A DNA stretch of 32,150 bases from a virus, in IMG/VR virus record IMGVR_UViG_3300020469_000156, positions 1 through 32,150 of that record; one strand, 5' to 3'. Each line of letters starts with the position of its first letter. The stretch's first letter is position 1. Made by a program: the position numbers and the translations under genes. Positions 11,479 through 23,006 of this stretch are shown here, piece by piece. The notes under the pieces were generated by a model. That model was not told where the DNA came from. It was given only the letters and a program-made list of their open reading frames with translations, and ran no database searches.

Positions 11479-11850
11479 ATGTTAGAGCAACGTAAATTAA
11501 CCAAGAAACAGTCGTGTTTAGTAGATACGCTTGTAGCAACAGGATGCACATTGCGCGAAGCTGCTACAGAAGCAGGATACGCCGAAGGTGAATCAGGAAG
11601 AGTAACAGCAAGCAAAACGATACGCTTACCGCATGTGCAGTCTTACATGATGCAACGGGTCAACGAGCAGCTTGGTATGAATGCTACTGTGGCTGCAGCA
11701 CGTGTTATGAACTTGGCTACGGGGGCTAGATCAGAGTACGTTCAGCTTGAGGCTAGTAAAGACATATTAGATCGCGCTGGGTTCAAGCCCATAGACCGTA
11801 GTCAGGTTCAGGTTGCTGGGGACATTCGTGTTAGCATTGATCTGAGTTAG
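11479..11850 (+). CDS. Terminase small subunit
   Basis: 123 residues. LTKKQSCLVDTLVATGCTLREAATEAGYA (7-35) is the N-terminal helix-turn-helix of small terminases (L..KQ..F......G.....AA..AGY). A helical oligomerisation region follows, and the C-terminus QVAGDIRVSIDLS matches the tail seen in many phage small subunits. AGGA lies upstream of the ATG. The small subunit recognises the genome's packaging site and hands it to the large subunit, encoded eight genes downstream. The G-rich tract just before this gene may be the recognised site, by inference. Confidence 0.82.
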   Translation: MLEQRKLTKKQSCLVDTLVATGCTLREAATEAGYAEGESGRVTASKTIRLPHVQSYMMQRVNEQLGMNATVAAARVMNLATGARSEYVQLEASKDILDRAGFKPIDRSQVQVAGDIRVSIDLS

Positions 11851-11977
11851 TGGGTAGGGGGTTAAAAAACCGTGACTCACTGTTAGCTAGTAGTCCCTCA
11901 CTCACATTATTCTTAAAAAAAGTACCTTTGCAAAAATATTATTTTGCTCTAGGGGTTTTGTTGAACAGGAGATTGAT
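11851..11977 (+). other. Intergenic leader with hairpin and AT-rich element
   Basis: Directly after the terminase stop, AGTGGGT (11849-11855) pairs with ACTCACT (11875-11881), enclosing GGTT/AACC. Further on TATTAT at 11937-11942 lies in an A/T-rich stretch and could be a -10 element, but no good -35 is visible. AGGAG at 11967-11971 serves the next gene. Confidence 0.35.
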
Positions 11978-12244
11978 TTGCCACAAGAGTCTACCAAGAG
12001 TTTGTTAAAGCGTGCTGAGTCTTTAGAGGCTCGCATTCGTTCTATGGAGGATGCTAGTGGTGCGTTTACTCCTGCGATACCTACTAAGGGTCTTGGTTTT
12101 TTTAAGAAGAACGCGGCTCGTATTATTAATAGGTTGAAGGACATGCGGCAGGATCAGGTTCTTAGCGGCAAGGATTACAAGCGCATGAACAAGACTTTGC
12201 TTGAGTTAGACAACAAGCTGTTTCGTCGTGGCAAGCCTCGGTAA
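11978..12244 (+). CDS. Small basic hypothetical protein
   Basis: 88 residues from a TTG start with AGGAG six bases upstream. The protein is basic and helical (KSLLKRAESLEARIRSM; AARIINRLKDMRQDQ) and ends RRGKPR. It is the first of six small Lys/Arg-rich proteins between the two terminase genes. Probably nucleic-acid-binding or virion-associated; no family recognised. Confidence 0.65.
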   Translation: MPQESTKSLLKRAESLEARIRSMEDASGAFTPAIPTKGLGFFKKNAARIINRLKDMRQDQVLSGKDYKRMNKTLLELDNKLFRRGKPR

Positions 12245-12258
12245 TATAGGAGATTGAT

Positions 12259-12624
12259 ATGAAGACGGAAACAAAGCGGCCTATGGCTGGTAGGGCTAGA
12301 AGTTTATTAAAGAAGGTTAGTGCTGAGATTGACAGCATACCTAAGTACAAGGGTTCTCTTACTGGTCAACCTGCTGAGACACCATTGCAGATGGTTAGTC
12401 ATAGTATTACTGCTGCTCGTCGCGCCATTCGTTTTCTTAAGAGCCAGCCTTCTGTTTCTTCTTTGGTTTCTAAGCGTAAGAAGCTAGAGGGCATAGTTAA
12501 GGACGCGGAGGAGTTTAAGAAGATGGACTTTAGCGGAAAGCCTAGCGGCGAGATGGGCAAGGCGACTACTACTCTAAGCAAGTCTGCTTATTTGAATAAG
12601 AAGCGCAAAGAGCGTAATCGTTGA
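12259..12624 (+). CDS. Small basic hypothetical protein
   Basis: 121 residues, with AGGAG seven bases before the ATG in the same GGAGATTGAT context as the previous gene. The protein is rich in Lys, Arg and Ser, with helices at RARSLLKKVSAEIDSI and SITAARRAIRFLKSQ and a strongly basic C-terminus (NKKRKERNR). No family recognised. Its basic character suggests DNA or RNA binding. Confidence 0.65.
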   Translation: MKTETKRPMAGRARSLLKKVSAEIDSIPKYKGSLTGQPAETPLQMVSHSITAARRAIRFLKSQPSVSSLVSKRKKLEGIVKDAEEFKKMDFSGKPSGEMGKATTTLSKSAYLNKKRKERNR

Positions 12625-12660
12625 GGGCTGGCGTATTAGCATCGGTATTAAGGATTCATC

Positions 12661-12960
12661 ATGGCAACACCAGCGTGGACACGAAAGGAAGGCAAGAACC
12701 CGAAGGGGGGCTTGAACGCCAAGGGGCGCGAGGGAACGGGGATGAAGGCTCCAGTAAAAAGCGGAGACAACCCAAGAAGAGCCAGCTTCCTAGCACGGAT
12801 GGGAAACATGAAAGGCCCCGAAAGGGACGAAAAAGGAAAGCCAACTCGTCTTCTTCTTAGCTTAAGGGTGTGGGGCGCATCGTCAAAAGCTGACGCAAGA
12901 GCGAAGGCTAGAGCAATTAGTAAGCGGAACAAAGCAAAGAAAGGGAAGTCAAATGCCTAG
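12661..12960 (+). CDS. DUF6321-like basic protein
   Basis: 99 residues. PAWTRKEGKNPKGGLNAKGR near the N-terminus, then RRASFLARMGNMKGP, then a WGASSKADARAKARAIS motif, form a conserved small-protein family I know from marine phages (DUF6321, name from memory). The protein is very basic, with about a quarter Lys or Arg, and has no cysteine or membrane segment. Function is unknown; position next to the terminase suggests a DNA-packaging or virion role. Its end overlaps the next gene by 8 bases. Confidence 0.72.
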   Translation: MATPAWTRKEGKNPKGGLNAKGREGTGMKAPVKSGDNPRRASFLARMGNMKGPERDEKGKPTRLLLSLRVWGASSKADARAKARAISKRNKAKKGKSNA

Positions 12961-13084
12961 TGGTAAAGGAACTTACGGAACTAAAGTTGGACGTCCTCCC
13001 AAGAAAAAGCCAGCTATGACTAAGAAACAAAAGACATTACCGACTGCTTTAAAGAGAAAAATCATGCAGTCAAAGGCTAAGTAA
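12953..13084 (+). CDS. 43-residue AT-hook protein
   Basis: A small frame with GGGAAG before the ATG. It contains VGRPPKKKP (residues 12-20), an AT-hook-like GRP core, and a Lys-rich C-terminus (KRKIMQSKAK). Stop and the next start overlap by one base (TAATG). Likely binds DNA by the minor groove; biological role unknown. Confidence 0.6.
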   Translation: MPSGKGTYGTKVGRPPKKKPAMTKKQKTLPTALKRKIMQSKAK

Positions 13085-13251
13085 TGGCGGTTAATGCTGC
13101 TGGTAACTACACCAAGCCCACAATGCGGAAGTCTTTATTCAAGCGCATTAAGGCTGCGAATGTACAGGGTACTGCTGCTGGCAAGTGGTCGGCGCGTAAG
13201 GCTCAGTTATTAGCCAAGCGTTATAAAGCTGCTGGTGGCGGTTACACATGA
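13084..13251 (+). CDS. Small basic conserved phage protein
   Basis: 55 residues. KWSARKAQLLAKRYKAAGGGYT at the C-terminus (34-55) is a motif I recognise from small phage and giant-virus proteins of unknown function, and NYTKPTMRKSLFKRIKA precedes it. The gene is coupled at both ends (TAATG before, ATGA after). Basic and probably helical; function unknown. Confidence 0.6.
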   Translation: MAVNAAGNYTKPTMRKSLFKRIKAANVQGTAAGKWSARKAQLLAKRYKAAGGGYT

Positions 13252-13484
13252 AGAAGCCTCAGAGATCATTATTAAATTGGGGCAAGCAGAAGTGGCGCAC
13301 CAAGTCGGGCAAGCGATCTAGTGACACTGGCGAACGGTACTTACCTAGTAAAGCTATTGCTGCTCTTAGTGATTCTGAATATGCAGCTACAACCGCAGCT
13401 AAACGAAAGGGCAAGGCTAAGGGTAAGCAGTTTGTGGCTCAACCGAAAGCTATTGCTAAAAAAGTAAGGCAGTATCGTACATGA
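13248..13484 (+). CDS. Small basic conserved protein of unknown function
   Basis: 78 residues with the conserved pattern KPQRSLLNWGKQKWRTKSGK, GERYLP..AI..LS, EYAATTAAKRKGKAKGKQF and a basic tail QPKAIAKKVRQYR. I recognise it as a family widespread in marine phages and algal viruses, but no function is established that I know of. It overlaps both neighbours by four bases. It may bind nucleic acid, to judge by its charge. Confidence 0.65.
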   Translation: MKKPQRSLLNWGKQKWRTKSGKRSSDTGERYLPSKAIAALSDSEYAATTAAKRKGKAKGKQFVAQPKAIAKKVRQYRT

Positions 13485-13666
13485 GTTTTATATCTACCCT
13501 TTCCCTAGCAGAGCTAGATATACTTAGGCAGATAGTTAGAAAGGTTCATCTAACGTATGTGCCGCTGGACTTTGCCACCGACAGGGAATGCGATAAGATG
13601 ATTGACGGCATGGCCCCTGAGACTGTTGATAGAATGTTGAGGTTCGGCAGACAGTACTGTGGTTGA
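13481..13666 (+). CDS. Small hypothetical protein before the large terminase
   Basis: 61 residues. It begins in an ATGA overlap with the previous stop and ends 8 bases inside the large terminase. The sequence is helical (LAELDILRQIVRKVHLTYV; DKMIDGMAPETVDRMLRF), neither strongly basic nor membrane-bound, unlike its neighbours. No family recognised; coupling to the terminase suggests a packaging-related role. Confidence 0.6.
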   Translation: MSFISTLSLAELDILRQIVRKVHLTYVPLDFATDRECDKMIDGMAPETVDRMLRFGRQYCG

Positions 13667-15182
13667 TTTTAAATACAAACCAGACGGAGAAACGCTTAAG
13701 GCGTTTATGAAAGACAATACATTCTTTCGTGGCATTCGCGGCCCTGTAGGTTCTGGCAAGTCTGTTGGCTGTTGCATTGAGGTATTTCGCAGGGCGCTTG
13801 CACAAGATAAGAATAGCAAGGGCATACGCAGAAGCCGCTGGGCAATTATTCGTAATACCAACCCACAGCTTAGAACCACTACTATTAAGACTTGGCTTGA
13901 TTGGTTTCCAGAAGCTGATTGGGGTAAGTTTACTTGGTCGGTTCCATATACTCACCACATTAAAAAGGGTGACATTGATCTTGAGGTTTTGTTCTTAGCT
14001 CTTGATAGGCCCGAAGACGTTAAGAAATTATTGTCATTAGAGCTTACTGGCATTTGGGTTAATGAGGCTAGAGAAATACCCAAGTCTATTATGGATGCGT
14101 GTACTATGCGCGTTGGTCGCTTTCCTTCTATGCGTGAGGGAGGGCCGTCTTGGACAGGAGTTATTGCCGATACCAATGCACCAGAGGAAGATCACTGGTG
14201 GCCGATCATGTCTGGCGAGGTTCCGATTCCAGATCACATACCGCGAGAACAAGCTAAGATGTTGGTTAAACCTGACAACTGGTCATTTTTTACGCAACCT
14301 GCTGCCATGACTGAGGTTAAGAACGACGAGAATGAAGTGGATGCCTATAAGCCTAGTAAGAGCGCAGAGAATACTAAGAACATGATGGGGTCTTATTATC
14401 CTAATTTAATACAGGGTAAAACTAAAAGCTGGATAGATGTTTATGTTATGAATCGCTTGGGTTCTATACAGGACGGAAAGCCAATCTATCCTATGTTTGT
14501 TACTGACACACACGTTGCTAAAGAGGAAATCCCTGTTGCTGCTGGTTATCCTTTGTATATTGGTTTGGATTTTGGTCTAACCCCTGCAGCTACTATGGGT
14601 CAAAAGGTTAGAGGTAGATGGTTAGTACAGGATGAAGTCGTTGCGTTTGACATGGGTATTGTTAGGTTTGCGGAAGTTCTACGTGAGCAGATTGCTACTA
14701 GATTCTCTCAGTGTTCTGAGGTTATTATTTATGGTGATCCTGCGGGTGACTTTCGGGCGCAGACCGACGAATCTACCCCGTTCCACATACTTAGAGGTGC
14801 TGGCCTTAGAGCATTCCCCGCCCCATCTAATTCCGTGGATTTGCGCCTTGAGTCGGTATCTTCGCAGCTTAACAAAATGACAGAAGGCAAACCCGCTTTT
14901 CTAGTAGATCGCCGTTGTTCTCAGCTTATCAAAGGCTTTGAGGGTGGATACCAGTATCGCCGCATGGAAGTATCTGGCGAGAGATACGCAGATAAGCCTG
15001 ACAAGAATATGTTTAGTCACATTCATGACGCGCTGCAGTATATGCTGTTGGGTGCTGGCGAAGGTCGGGCCTTGATGAATAATCAAAAAGCGGCTAGGCC
15101 ATCTGTTGCCAAGAGGGACTTTGATGTATTTGCCAAGCGTAGTAGTCCCAAGCGCAGACAGGGACTATGGGCGCGTATGTAA
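13659..15182 (+). CDS. Terminase large subunit
   Basis: 507 residues from a GTG start overlapping the previous gene. The ATPase has Walker A GPVGSGKS at 28-35 and a Walker-B-like TGIWVNEARE (130-139, Glu136 catalytic) of the form seen in T7-like and related terminases. The nuclease domain has Asp304 in GLDFGLTP, Asp360 in YGDPAGD and Asp457 in HIHDALQY, the acidic triad of the RNase-H-like fold. It pumps DNA into proheads and cuts concatemers, using the connector encoded two genes downstream as its dock. The motif after its stop codon is repeated at 30826. Confidence 0.95.
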   Translation: MVDFKYKPDGETLKAFMKDNTFFRGIRGPVGSGKSVGCCIEVFRRALAQDKNSKGIRRSRWAIIRNTNPQLRTTTIKTWLDWFPEADWGKFTWSVPYTHHIKKGDIDLEVLFLALDRPEDVKKLLSLELTGIWVNEAREIPKSIMDACTMRVGRFPSMREGGPSWTGVIADTNAPEEDHWWPIMSGEVPIPDHIPREQAKMLVKPDNWSFFTQPAAMTEVKNDENEVDAYKPSKSAENTKNMMGSYYPNLIQGKTKSWIDVYVMNRLGSIQDGKPIYPMFVTDTHVAKEEIPVAAGYPLYIGLDFGLTPAATMGQKVRGRWLVQDEVVAFDMGIVRFAEVLREQIATRFSQCSEVIIYGDPAGDFRAQTDESTPFHILRGAGLRAFPAPSNSVDLRLESVSSQLNKMTEGKPAFLVDRRCSQLIKGFEGGYQYRRMEVSGERYADKPDKNMFSHIHDALQYMLLGAGEGRALMNNQKAARPSVAKRDFDVFAKRSSPKRRQGLWARM

Positions 15183-15240: not shown

Positions 15241-15567
15241 ATGTGCAAATTCATAAGTAGACCGCTTAGAAAAATAGAACGAGCTTCAAATAAACTTATT
15301 GGCAAGCCTTTAGGTATTAACACTAATATTTTTGGTGGTGGTTTAAATAAGGGCGGTGCGCCTATGGTGGATGAATCTGCAGAAGACCTGCAGGCTCTAT
15401 CCGATCAGGCTAACGAAGAGTTGGCAGAAGAAAAGCAAAAAGCTACAGAAGACACTATACAGCAAACTACAGCTAAAAGATTTAGAAGCGGATCGCGTGG
15501 TCGGCGTTCTTTGCTGCGATCTAAGTCTGGTGGTGGCGCTGGGTTTTATAACAGGTTTCAATTATGA
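15241..15567 (+). CDS. Small conserved protein upstream of the connector
   Basis: 108 residues, with AAGGAG before the ATG. The N-terminus is basic (LRKIERASNKLIGKP), the middle acidic and helical (DESAEDLQALSDQANEELAE), and the C-terminus carries GRRSLLRSKSGGGAGFYNRF, an ending I have seen in small proteins encoded just before connector genes of marine podoviruses. Stop and connector start overlap by four bases. Likely virion or assembly related; function unknown. Confidence 0.65.
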   Translation: MCKFISRPLRKIERASNKLIGKPLGINTNIFGGGLNKGGAPMVDESAEDLQALSDQANEELAEEKQKATEDTIQQTTAKRFRSGSRGRRSLLRSKSGGGAGFYNRFQL

Positions 15568-17120
15568 TAGATGATCCAATAGCTAAAGGTTACTACGAGC
15601 ATTACGCTAAGGCAAAAGCCAAGCGTGAAAACTTTATACCTTTGTTTGAAGAATGCTATGAGTATTCCCTTCCCCAGCGTGAGTCATTTTATTATGAAAG
15701 CGTAGGGCAGAGACGCGACGATAAAATATTTGACGAGACTGCTGTTGTTGGTGTGCAAGAGTTTGCATCCCGATTGCAGTCGGGCATTGTTCCTAACTTT
15801 GCGCGATGGGCTGATCTAACTGCTGGCTCCGAGGTTCCTAAAGAACAGCGTGATGCCGTTAATAATGACCTTGATGAAGTCACTGACTATGTATTTGAGG
15901 TTTTGCAGAACTCTAACTTCAGCCAAGAGGTGCATGAATCCTTTATGGATTTAGCCGTAGGCACTGGCGTTTTGGTTGCAGAAGAAGGCGATGCAATTAA
16001 TCCAATACGCTTCTCTGCTATTCCCCTGCCTCACGTTGTATTAGATACTGGCCCTGATGATCGGATAGATCACATCTACCGTGAGCGTAAGGGCATTAGA
16101 TATAATCAGTTGCAGGTTTTATACCCTGACGCTGAAATGAATGAGCAGATACAGAACCGCATGGGTAATGGCGGTAAGGATACAACGACTGTACTTGAGT
16201 TGGTTTGCCGTGATTACTCACAGAAAAACCAAGAAGTATATATGAGTTACGCTTACTGCATGACTACCGAAAGCGTGATTTACAAACGTGAGCTTAAGGG
16301 CAATGGCGCTAATCCTTTTATTTGTTTCCGTTGGTCTAAGTGTGCTGGCGAAGTCTATGGTCGCGGTCCTCTTATCAATGCGCTGTCTGCTATTAAGACA
16401 ACCAACCTAACCATTGAGTTAATCTTAGAAAATGCACAGATGGCTATATCTGGCGTGTATCAAATGGATGATGATGGCGTCATTAATCCTGATACTATAT
16501 CCTTAGTGCCAGGGTCCATTATACCAAAGGCTATTGGTTCCAATGGGTTACAGCCCGTTGCTGCAGCAGGAGACTTTAGTGTGTCTCAGCTTATACTTTC
16601 TGATATGCGCTTAAACATTAAACGTGCGCTGTATAATGACATGCTAGGCAATCCAGATAAAACTCCTGCATCTGCTACTGAGGTTGCGGAACGTATGGCT
16701 GATTTATCTAGGCGTATGGGTTCTGCGTTTGGCAGACTGCAAGCAGAGCTAGTGCAGCCAGTATTGCAGCGCGTTATTTACATTCTTAAGAAACAGGGTC
16801 GCATTGAAGTTCCTACTGTCAATGGTCGGGAAGTTAAAGTTAGGTCTGTATCTCCACTAGCGCAAGCACAGGCTAATGCAGATATATCATCTGTTGGTCG
16901 CTTTCTTGAGATGGTTCTTGGCACCTTTGGGCCGGAGGTTCTTAACCTACTAATCAATTCAGAAGAAACCGCAGCACATCTTGCTAAGAAGTTTGGTGTG
17001 CCTGACGGGTTGATTCGTGATCCAGAAGAACGTAAGCAGATAGTTGCAATGGCGCAGCAAATGCAAATGCAGCAACAACAGCAAATGCAAGAGCAACCGC
17101 CACAGGAACAACTGCAATAG
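15564..17120 (+). CDS. Head-tail connector (portal) protein, T7 gp8-like
   Basis: 518 residues, close to T7 gp8 (536). Characteristic segments: YSLPQRESFYYESVGQRRDD near the N-terminus, then FDETAVVGVQEFASRLQSG, PNFARWADLTAG, AVGTGVLVAEEG and GPLINALSAIKTTNLTIE in the middle, and TPASATEVAERMADLSRRMG towards the C-terminus. These match the T7-type head-to-tail connector family. The last 30 residues are Gln/Met-rich low complexity (QQMQMQQQQQMQEQ). It forms the dodecameric ring through which DNA passes and to which tail tubular A attaches. Confidence 0.93.
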   Translation: MIDDPIAKGYYEHYAKAKAKRENFIPLFEECYEYSLPQRESFYYESVGQRRDDKIFDETAVVGVQEFASRLQSGIVPNFARWADLTAGSEVPKEQRDAVNNDLDEVTDYVFEVLQNSNFSQEVHESFMDLAVGTGVLVAEEGDAINPIRFSAIPLPHVVLDTGPDDRIDHIYRERKGIRYNQLQVLYPDAEMNEQIQNRMGNGGKDTTTVLELVCRDYSQKNQEVYMSYAYCMTTESVIYKRELKGNGANPFICFRWSKCAGEVYGRGPLINALSAIKTTNLTIELILENAQMAISGVYQMDDDGVINPDTISLVPGSIIPKAIGSNGLQPVAAAGDFSVSQLILSDMRLNIKRALYNDMLGNPDKTPASATEVAERMADLSRRMGSAFGRLQAELVQPVLQRVIYILKKQGRIEVPTVNGREVKVRSVSPLAQAQANADISSVGRFLEMVLGTFGPEVLNLLINSEETAAHLAKKFGVPDGLIRDPEERKQIVAMAQQMQMQQQQQMQEQPPQEQLQ

Positions 17121-19812: not shown

Positions 19813-20400
19813 ATGGCAAGCACAGCATCCGATAGCCCGATTGACATTTGTAGCCGCGCACTAATTCTTATTGGTGCAGAACCTATTACGTCATTTGATG
19901 ATGGAAACAATGAAGCACTTGTTGCTTCTAATATGTATGAGGATGTAGCCCAATCAGCTTTAGTTAATACACGGTGGCGCTTTGCAACGGATCAACTTGT
20001 ATTGAACCGACTTAGCGATGCACCTACTGGCAGATATGAAGCAGCATATCAAATGCCAAACAACTCACTTATGATCCACGCCTTAACGGTAAACGGATTT
20101 AACATTGAGTTTCAAACTTACAGTGACAATCTATTCTGTGATGCCGATGCTTCTGATGAAGTAGTGGCTGATTATACATACAGAGTTACCGAAGAGTATT
20201 GGCCTTCTTACTTTACAATGGCTGTTCAGTTTCAGTTGGCATCTGTATTTGCAGTATCATTAGCGCGTGATGGTAGTCTTTCTCAGCTTATGGATCAAAA
20301 GGGTGCAATGCTTATGGCTAAAGCCAGAGGTCTTGATTCACAATCGCAAACAACACGTAGGCTGGACACATCAAGATTTATCAGCAATAGGCGCAGCTAA
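19813..20400 (+). CDS. Tail tubular protein A, T7 gp11-like
   Basis: 195 residues (T7 gp11 has 196). DICSRALILIGAEPITSFDD (11-30), then EALVASNMYEDVAQSALVNT and RWRFATDQLVLN, are the conserved opening of this family, and VADYTYRVTEEYWPSYFTMA is the conserved middle. It forms the upper tail ring that docks on the connector. Translation may depend on the hairpin described just upstream. The stop overlaps the next start by one base. Confidence 0.92.
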   Translation: MASTASDSPIDICSRALILIGAEPITSFDDGNNEALVASNMYEDVAQSALVNTRWRFATDQLVLNRLSDAPTGRYEAAYQMPNNSLMIHALTVNGFNIEFQTYSDNLFCDADASDEVVADYTYRVTEEYWPSYFTMAVQFQLASVFAVSLARDGSLSQLMDQKGAMLMAKARGLDSQSQTTRRLDTSRFISNRRS

Positions 20401-23006
20401 TGCAGAAGGTACAGGTTCCGATAACTAACTTCCAATTCGGCGAGGTTAGTCCTTCGTTGTCATCCCGAACTGATACTGCTGTTTATACGGCGTCTGCTCA
20501 GAGAGTGGAGAATATGTTTATTCGCTCTGAGGGTGGGGTTATTAAACGCGCTGGCTTGCAAAATTTATACAAGTACACTGACATAACATACAACTCTGCC
20601 AAGACTCAGCAAGCTAGGTTAATGCCGTTTATCTTTTCGGATGACGAGCAATACATAGTTTCTATGGAGAATGCTAAGGTGCGGGTATTTATTATTGATC
20701 CGTCTACTGGTGCAGTGTCATTAACAGCTACACTTACTTCCGATGTTGATAGCGCAGCGTTACCTTTCTCTGATTCTTTTTTACATGAATACACTTTTGC
20801 CCAGTTAGGTGATGTACTATTTGTGTGTCATCCTTTGTTTATGCCAAGGCAGATTGTAAGAACGAGCCTTACTGCATTCCAAGTAGAAACATTTACGTTT
20901 GATACTCGGTCTGACAAAGAGCAGATTTACCAGCCTTACTATAACTTTCACAATGCGGGTGTATCTTTAACGCCTAGCGGAACAAGTAGTAGTATCACCT
21001 TAACCATTGGTGAGTTTAGCGCAGAGGCAGATGACGATGGTATTTCTGTATCGGCTGAAGTAGGTAATGCAGCTAATTTAGTTCTTGGTGGCGCGTTAGC
21101 ATCTAGTGGATCAGTTACATTTGTTTACGGTAGATTGGTTACTATCACATCTGGTGGTAATGATAGTGGTTTTGCATTTACTGTAACTGGCACAAATGTA
21201 GATGGCGATGCTCAAACTGAAGCTATTACTGGTGCAAATACTGGTGTAGCTACAGGAACTAAGTTCTTTAAAACTATTACACAAATTGCTGCTGCTGGTG
21301 ATCCCGCTGGAACAGTAAAGGCTGGCGTTACTGACAAAGCTGCTGTGCCTTATTTTGATACTACTGGTAGTCAATCTGGTGGCAACTATGCAAGCTCAAA
21401 GCATGTTGGAGTAACCTTACTTTATCATAAGTCGGAAATACTTATTACTTCTGTTCAGTCTGGGACTCAGGCCACTGGCACTGTGTTGGATAGTTTGTTT
21501 GTGCAGCTTAAAGTTAATGCTCTTAAAACAATTAGTGGCTCAGCAACTGTAGAAGTAACTCATGTTAATCATGGTATGAGGGTTGGGGATTCTGTCACAC
21601 TATCCGAATGTGCTGCTGTGGGTAATATTTCTACTGGCAATCTTAACGGTGCTAGAGTTATTACAGGCATCATAGATGATAATCATTATACCTTTACGGC
21701 TGGTGGTTCTGCTAACGCTTCTGTAGATGGGGGCGGTTCTCCCAAAGTAACATCTTCTGCACCTACTACAGATTGGGCAGAGCAATCATACTCTAGTCTT
21801 AGAGGCTTTCCATCTGCCATTACCTTTCATCAGAATAGACTTTGCTTTGCTGGCACAATAGCGCAGCCAGATACTATTTGGATGTCTAAGTCTGCATCTT
21901 ATTATAACTTTGATGTTGGCGATGCTAATGATAGTGATTCAATACATCTTACTGCTAGTGTTGGTGAGGTTCAGCAAATCAGGCACTTGGTTTCTAACAG
22001 AGACTTACAGGTGTTTACTGCATCTTCTGAAATGTATGTACCTGCATTTCAAGACAAACCTATTACACCAACTAACGCACAGGTTAGAAGGCAAACACCG
22101 TTTGGTAGTGATTCTATACGTCCACAGGTTTTGGATGGCGCTACTATCTTTGTGCAAGCTGGTGGCTCTATTGTGCGCGAGTATTTGTTTACAGATTCAG
22201 AGGAAGCCTACACCGCTGTTCCTGTGTCTTCTTTGTCTTCTCACTTAATAGATAACCCTGTAGAAATGAATACTTTTTATGGGGCTGTAGAGCGTTCTGA
22301 AAGTTATGTTTTTATTAGAAACGCATCTGGCAAGATGGCTGTGTTTAATTCCAACAGAGCGGAGCAACGTGCTGGCTGGGCTGAATTTACTAGCCAAGGA
22401 TTGTTTCACTCTACAGTTACTATAGATGATCGTGTGTTTGCTAACGTGGCCTTCCCGATGGGGAACGATACAACGAGGTATGTACTCTGTGAACTTAAAG
22501 CAGATTCTAACATGGATATGTCCAAGACCTATACCGCGACAAGTACGAACAATGGAATCTTCACTGTTTCATCAGACTTTGAAAACGGTGCTGTTGTTAA
22601 TGTTGTTAGCGGTAATAACTATATTGGTGAGTTTACTGTTTCTGGCGGCAATGTTGATGTCAGTGCTGTAGAGGGATTAAACACTGCAGAGATTGGTTAT
22701 AAGTTTGATGTTACTCTTAAGACCAATCCTATAGATACCAACACGCAAGCTGGCCCTGTGAGTGGTAAGATTAGAAGTCTTGCTAGTGTAATTGTTGATC
22801 TTAACTCTACGTTATCAATTAGTGTTAATGGCACTAACTTGGTTATTCGTCAGGTTAATGATGACTTATCTCAGGAACAGACTGCAGTTACAGGACGTAA
22901 AGAATTTAGATTGATGGGTTATGGCCGGACACCACAAGTAACTATTAGTCAATCAGCGCCGTTACCTTTACAGGTCAATGGCCTAATAGCGGAGTTAGTA
23001 TTCTAA
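20400..23006 (+). CDS. Tail tubular protein B, T7 gp12-like
   Basis: 868 residues, somewhat longer than T7 gp12 (794). The conserved N-terminus has NFQFGEVSPSLSSRTDTAVY and RSEGGVIKRAGLQ, and the propeller continues with LRGFPSAITFHQNRLCFAGT (about 467) and DTIWMSKSASYYNF. In between (about 180-450) sits an extra Gly/Thr/Ser-rich, beta-sandwich-like region. It ends in a small domain with VTHVNHGMRVGDSVTL, the FCCH-like domain seen in other phage tail proteins. It forms the tail nozzle and the fibre attachment site with tail tubular A. Confidence 0.92.
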   Translation: MQKVQVPITNFQFGEVSPSLSSRTDTAVYTASAQRVENMFIRSEGGVIKRAGLQNLYKYTDITYNSAKTQQARLMPFIFSDDEQYIVSMENAKVRVFIIDPSTGAVSLTATLTSDVDSAALPFSDSFLHEYTFAQLGDVLFVCHPLFMPRQIVRTSLTAFQVETFTFDTRSDKEQIYQPYYNFHNAGVSLTPSGTSSSITLTIGEFSAEADDDGISVSAEVGNAANLVLGGALASSGSVTFVYGRLVTITSGGNDSGFAFTVTGTNVDGDAQTEAITGANTGVATGTKFFKTITQIAAAGDPAGTVKAGVTDKAAVPYFDTTGSQSGGNYASSKHVGVTLLYHKSEILITSVQSGTQATGTVLDSLFVQLKVNALKTISGSATVEVTHVNHGMRVGDSVTLSECAAVGNISTGNLNGARVITGIIDDNHYTFTAGGSANASVDGGGSPKVTSSAPTTDWAEQSYSSLRGFPSAITFHQNRLCFAGTIAQPDTIWMSKSASYYNFDVGDANDSDSIHLTASVGEVQQIRHLVSNRDLQVFTASSEMYVPAFQDKPITPTNAQVRRQTPFGSDSIRPQVLDGATIFVQAGGSIVREYLFTDSEEAYTAVPVSSLSSHLIDNPVEMNTFYGAVERSESYVFIRNASGKMAVFNSNRAEQRAGWAEFTSQGLFHSTVTIDDRVFANVAFPMGNDTTRYVLCELKADSNMDMSKTYTATSTNNGIFTVSSDFENGAVVNVVSGNNYIGEFTVSGGNVDVSAVEGLNTAEIGYKFDVTLKTNPIDTNTQAGPVSGKIRSLASVIVDLNSTLSISVNGTNLVIRQVNDDLSQEQTAVTGRKEFRLMGYGRTPQVTISQSAPLPLQVNGLIAELVF

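Follow-up and report, generated by a model that had tools for sequence, protein, structure and literature searches.

Among the described systems closest to the genes analysed here are two kinds of phage protein. The internal proteins of phage T4, in the accessible sections of the source, are highly diverse, with a capsid targeting sequence as their sole common feature; their lysines contact DNA phosphates, and IPI* is injected (PMC3012670). T7 gp7.3 is described as mostly positively charged, placed at the DNA end in the portal-tail region and ejected, with residues K84 and K85 contacting the DNA end and a C-terminal loop anchored to the nozzle (excerpts of PMC11784390).

The window (the whole 32,150-nt stretch of viral DNA that was analysed) carries an island of genes between its two terminase genes that recalls the T4 internal proteins in encoding diverse small proteins with one common short motif, although the motif is a different one, may lie N-terminally, internally or C-terminally, belongs to a podovirus, and is carried by proteins known here from their genes alone. 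The likeness to T7 gp7.3 (and gp6.7) is that p8, encoded upstream of the portal gene (15564-17120), has a gp7.3-type C-terminus and that [KR][KR]SL recurs in island proteins, but the latter form a numerous set, for the most part without the GGG tail, and their genes precede TerL and not the portal gene. The interval also resembles the gp16-gp17 hot spot of T4-like cyanophages, which in the part of the source available holds variable genes between TerS and TerL (PMC3037559); metabolic genes are found there too, whereas here the genes mostly encode small basic proteins with a common motif. The cyanophage T4-GC119 proteins share with p3 the DUF6321 domain and a location near the terminase genes, although in these T4-like phages the domain forms the extreme C-terminus of proteins of ~365-710 aa, and p3 is almost free-standing with a basic tail. 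Finally, p5 and p6 align to the two halves of DUF5872 proteins (PF19197) of bacteria and algal viruses, but are split into two overlapping genes, lack the Rho_N-type tail and have no direct Pfam match.

Six basic genes between TerS and TerL

TerS, TerL, p1 to p8 and their motif sites are all on the + strand. The terminase small subunit gene, TerS (11479..11850), is recognized by PF03592 (29.7 bits, cut-off 26.1) and phrog_2538 (5.8e-13), and the large subunit gene, TerL (13659..15182), by phrog_2 (3.8e-20); the TerL product has 65% identity to that of Pelagibacter phage Hodr. Within the interval, p1 (11978..12244; 88 aa) has a TTG start and KSLLK near its N-terminus (KSLL at aa 7-10, 11996..12007), and its leader AGGAGATTGAT is common to p2 (12259..12624; 121 aa), which contains an RSLLK motif (RSLL at aa 14-17, 12298..12309); neither matches a known family. 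These are followed by p3 (12661..12960; 99 aa), composed of DUF6321 (PF19846) at aa 11-71 and a basic tail, and by p4 (12953..13084; 43 aa), with an AT-hook-like KGTYGxKVGRPPKK. The p5 gene (13084..13251; 55 aa; phrog_17747) corresponds to the N-terminal half of the DUF5872 family and has KSLF at aa 16-19 (13129..13140), and p6 (13248..13484; 78 aa; phrog_14910), overlapping p5 by 4 nt, corresponds to the second half and has RSLL at aa 6-9 (13263..13274). A non-basic seventh ORF, p7 (13481..13666; 61 aa, pI 5.6, no family), sits between the basic island and TerL.

The products of p1 to p6 have pIs of 10.6-11.6 and net charges of +11 to +20, and are the most basic ORFs of the window apart from an overlapping basic ORF (11850-12008) that is taken as spurious. 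The pN/pS values are 0.06 for p1 (9 pairs), 0.28 for p2 (2 pairs), 0.13 for p3 (19 pairs), 0.10 for p4 (2 pairs), 0.12 for p5 (36 pairs) and 0.19 for p6 (49 pairs), and all six basic ORFs are under purifying selection. Because amino-acid-changing changes are rarer than silent ones in each, p1-p6 are genes and not chance ORFs, and the original prediction of six consecutive small basic genes between the terminase genes is borne out. That prediction also ascribed an AT-hook to one of the proteins, which holds in part. In p4 a GRP core runs on into a stretch rich in P and K, VGRPPKKK in the window, and GRP is present in 21/22 p4 relatives. The classical AT-hook core is RGRP, and p4, judged from its residues, is AT-hook-like and not of the classical type.

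A swap site for basic proteins

Loci for comparison were fetched by TerL and not by island content. Among the 81 fetched, 41 (the window included) have both terminase genes, and with two further groups of 32 and 10 loci the total is 83. In the 41 loci of this lineage p7 is present in all 41, p3 in 35, p5 and p6 in 24 each, p4 in 14, p2 in six and p1 in one, and the position of p2 varies relative to p5/p6. To the question whether the set is co-conserved, the answer is that the six basic genes are not one conserved block. Separation of the terminase genes, which had been taken as a departure from their usual adjacency, is here the rule, with a TerS-TerL gap of 280-3002 bp in the 41 loci and 280-3863 bp over all 83. 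Three loci (L189, L195 and L197) have p7 alone in the interval, with a gap of 280-281 bp, and p7 lies between the terminase genes in 82/83 loci, the exception being L317. We also note that p7 overlaps the start of TerL and is its most constant neighbour, and p7 is possibly a third packaging component.

The genes p5 and p6 come and go together: 24 of the 41 loci have both and 17 have neither, and the both-or-neither pattern extends throughout the 83. On the TerL tree the pair needs six changes, at least four of which are forced by well supported branches. A search for p6 elsewhere in the 17 loci lacking it gave 0/17, the whole records searched being fragments and the search having no positive control. 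Replacement is seen between sisters with 98-99% identical TerL, which trade one gene for another basic gene. Sister L161 has a single 46-aa basic gene ending KKKKSLLKR exactly where p5 and p6 stand, in flanks with 95-98% identity to those of L009, and L009 has a 117-aa basic gene with KSLL instead of p1, a place at which L161 has no gene. Genes for basic proteins are exchanged for one another in the TerS-TerL interval. The same interval holds an endolysin-like gene in one relative (L165), an HNH endonuclease gene in another (L198), and genes of unknown function in L168 and L171.

The slot between TerS and TerL is characterised by basic charge. The median net charge per length is 0.10 for unlabelled island ORFs, which were called mechanically and include spurious ones, versus 0.04 for the small ORFs that follow TerL, and the corresponding values in the two further locus groups are 0.15 vs 0.03 and 0.12 vs 0.00. 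The p-values of the first charge comparison are inflated because the sequences are related, and family-level counts are safer. The expectation of a basic, nucleic-acid-type set at this site is thus retained as a charge bias replicated in two groups, but not as a conserved block.

A shared short motif and two domain families

The motif [KR][ST]LL, counted per BLAST family and found first by reading the island proteins, is present in 24/90 island families versus 3.85 expected by shuffling, with none of 2000 shuffles as high, and in 5/67 families downstream of TerL versus 5.2 expected. The strings KSLL and SLLK each occur in 27/90 families, and rearrangements of these residue classes in 1-8. In loci outside the first look the motif was found in 23/52 vs 2.06, and in a second clade, for which the pattern had been set in advance, in 10/52 families vs 2.77 (0/1000 shuffles). 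A small intermediate group has weak enrichment (3/24 vs 0.89; 44/1000 shuffles); the downstream counts for the second clade and the intermediate group are 3/25 and 0/17. In the window, [KR]S[LF][LF] is found in p1, p2, p5, p6 and p8 among 47 ORFs scanned. The codons at the motif are mixed, with both AGY and TCN serines, so that selection acts at the level of the protein rather than of a DNA element, and a DNA-level repeat as the source of the motif is rejected.

The motif is not a feature of every protein associated with the slot. The commonest basic island protein, p3, is without it (1/30 members has it). The motif sites of p5 and p6 overlap with positions belonging to the family fold, and the p6 motif may be family-specific, since several other viral rows read KSLK there; a general link between the motif and p5/p6 is rejected, as 66 loci of other lineages have the motif near p6 in 3/127 families vs 3.4, with no enrichment. 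The sign that the motif favours protein ends is unconvincing (16/27 vs 44% expected). The motif-bearing families may be paralogues too remote for BLAST to detect.

Beyond the island, p8 (15241..15567) has the motif as RSLL at aa 89-92 (15505..15516) within the C-terminus GRRSLLRSKSGGGAGFYNRFQL. It ends in GRRSLLRSKSGGG followed by an aromatic tail, and T7 gp7.3 ends in GGKKSLSVARSSGGGINI. The p8 protein has both a phrog_1320 match (E = 4.6e-4) and a C-terminal [KR][KR]SL..SGGG, which together assign it to the gp7.3 family, and p1-p6 do not. By analogy, this likeness suggests what the motif could do, and for the island proteins any such role would be a putative one. The window also encodes a nozzle-type tail protein (20400-23006). 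As a separate observation, p8 has an N-terminal MC in addition to its C-terminal RRSLL..SGGG, and because T7 gp6.7 begins MCF, p8 may combine features of gp7.3 and gp6.7.

The p3 protein matches DUF6321 at 58.5 bits (gathering score 28.5) over model positions 1-72 of 72, and is thus a member of that family. Cyanophage DUF6321 proteins are encoded just after TerS or shortly before TerL. In S-CREM2, ORF137 has DUF6321 at aa 415-488 of 490 and its gene lies between TerS and TerL; the published virion table, as given in the portion of the source available, lists ORF137 with four unique peptides and 4.1% coverage (PMC10665884). S-SCSM1, for which 45 virion proteins by mass spectrometry are reported in the sections at hand (PMC9602691), encodes S-SCSM1_29, annotated 'virion protein', with DUF6321 at its C-terminus and ~1 kb before TerL; DUF6321 was located within bases 36000-85000 of this genome and not within 85000-130000, 130000-175000 or 179000-228827. 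The domain is encoded beside the connector in MEP301, and between the scaffold and capsid genes in HTVC200P. A model of p3 (pLDDT 84) has no PDB match at E<=0.001, and its BFVD matches are largely other DUF6321 proteins. In the open-licence papers searched, DUF6321 is not named.

The association of p5 with p6 extends well beyond this lineage. Viral loci fetched with p6 have p5 in 80/80 cases: in 79 the p5 gene precedes p6 in the same orientation, and in one the two are fused. Of the phage records with p5, 17/18 also have p6 at equal sensitivity; in the remaining one, S-EIVl, a profile match to p6 lies just downstream. The two are fused as a single gene in Hodr and four relatives, and in bacterial loci, which were fetched with the whole protein, the p5 and p6 parts are in one ORF in 59/59. 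Neither p5 nor p6 alone matches the DUF5872 model (gathering score 27.5 bits) at E<=10, nor does the window, and because of this the relation to DUF5872 rests on a bacterial intermediate, P0001 (28.5 bits for DUF5872), one half of which aligns with p5 and the other with p6. By these alignments, p5 and p6 each represent one half of a single bacterial protein family, DUF5872. Plasmid-borne proteins of Azospirillum and Phaeobacter score 28.5 and 26.1 bits (cut-off 27.5), and in these two, the only ones scanned, a Rho_N-type match behind DUF5872 is weak in the Azospirillum protein and strong in the Phaeobacter protein. The control genome, Caulobacter vibrioides, has a DUF5872 signal below the cut-off.

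The pair does not keep a fixed place across lineages, and stands away from the terminase genes in others. It follows a lysis-type peptidase gene in HTVC034P and Lederberg, is immediately before TerL in Methylophilales phage MEP402, and is split by a three-gene insert in HMO-2011. The HMO-2011 insert (L003 6258-8619), which separates the p5 homologue from that of p6, comprises a gene for methanesulfonate monooxygenase and two small genes. In bacteria, the recurring neighbours of DUF5872 genes are mainly those common to related genera, and none indicates a function. A model of the fused DUF5872 protein (pLDDT 82, pTM 0.58) has no PDB match at E<=10, and no Z >=2 among four chains re-aligned. Within the open-licence literature, DUF5872 is named only in a gene list of an alga-infecting virus, in the accessible part of that paper (PMC12085832), and no mention was found of the WSARKAQ string.

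Proposed virion cargo and other readings

Of several explanations for the island, the one that we favour, tentatively and at somewhat short of an even chance, is that the basic proteins are virion cargo held near the genome end through the shared short motif, because the island resembles the T4 internal proteins in being a diverse, small, basic, lysine-rich and exchangeable set with one motif. The TerS-TerL interval would then be a late-operon cargo slot for a changing set of small basic and probably DNA-binding proteins, many of which would share nothing more than [KR]-[ST]-L-[LMF], with a basic or polar residue in most cases next to it on the C-terminal side. The motif could dock the island proteins on a single partner shared by all of them, situated in the prohead or at the portal/tail vertex. 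Loaded together with the genome, they would then pass with it into the next cell, as the T4 internal proteins do by way of their capsid targeting sequence. DUF6321 in p3 may be a second, independent virion-associating domain, and p5 and p6 may act together as a two-chain DUF5872 protein. For the window's own proteins we infer DNA binding, docking, virion location and ejection alike, and no virion proteomics or DNA-binding reports for this phage group were found in the literature. A stronger version, which we regard as rather unlikely, is that [KR][ST]LL is a portable virion-loading peptide in a group of podoviruses, such that any small slot protein with the motif would be loaded at the genome end, at the portal-tail nozzle like T7 gp7.3, and delivered into the host first, making the slot the podoviral counterpart of the T4 internal-protein cargo.

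The same proteins could instead act within the infected cell and not in the virion, as late-expressed nucleic-acid-binding proteins for host takeover or counter-defence, with the motif binding an enzyme of the host or the phage, for example RNA polymerase or terminase. We consider this unlikely, though by no means negligible: the quick swapping, gain and loss seen in the changes of the p5/p6 pair are typical of counter-defence genes, and DUF5872 is free-standing in the 59 bacterial loci with no conserved neighbours, but the motif that island proteins share with p8 and T7 gp7.3 is left unexplained, as are the placement in the terminase/structural module and the presence of DUF6321 in virion lists. 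A role as packaging accessories, an idea that goes back to the original prediction, would have the proteins neutralise or condense DNA, or modulate TerS/TerL, during packaging without being cargo. It fits the placement, in that in this lineage the genes invariably stand between the two terminase genes, p7 is constant beside TerL, and DUF6321 proteins are encoded just after TerS in T4-like cyanophages too. We nonetheless judge it improbable, since the three loci that lack the whole island show it to be dispensable for packaging, and the p5-p6 pair is found away from the terminase genes in other lineages. The least probable of these readings is that unrelated accessory genes simply insert at a permissive hot spot, with charge and motif as by-products of reusing a few families. 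The endolysin-like and HNH genes inserted in some relatives are consistent with this, and the gp16-gp17 interval is a known hot spot, but it does not account for a motif enrichment that was measured per family against both shuffles and downstream genes and replicated in a second clade, nor for a charge bias present in all three locus groups.

Phage-carried, injected proteins are hard to recognise from sequence, and under the favoured cargo explanation a common short motif and a fixed genomic slot would let such proteins be listed in a widespread marine phage group; should the motif prove to be a portable peptide, the contents of the slot would be a ready list of injected effectors. Nothing was found in the open-licence literature on the motif or on basic proteins between terminase genes. 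DUF6321 and DUF5872, both unexplained, would become testable virion or DNA-associated modules. Even without the cargo idea the results are usable for annotation, with p5 and p6 recorded as a split bacterial protein and the interval as a basic-protein swap site. We also note, with regard to the annotation of DUF6321, that Pelagibacter phage Greip (L152 3876-4127) has a free-standing DUF6321 gene labelled 'RecA-like recombination protein, Gp114', and that this label probably derives from Syn9 gp114, a DUF6321 carrier.
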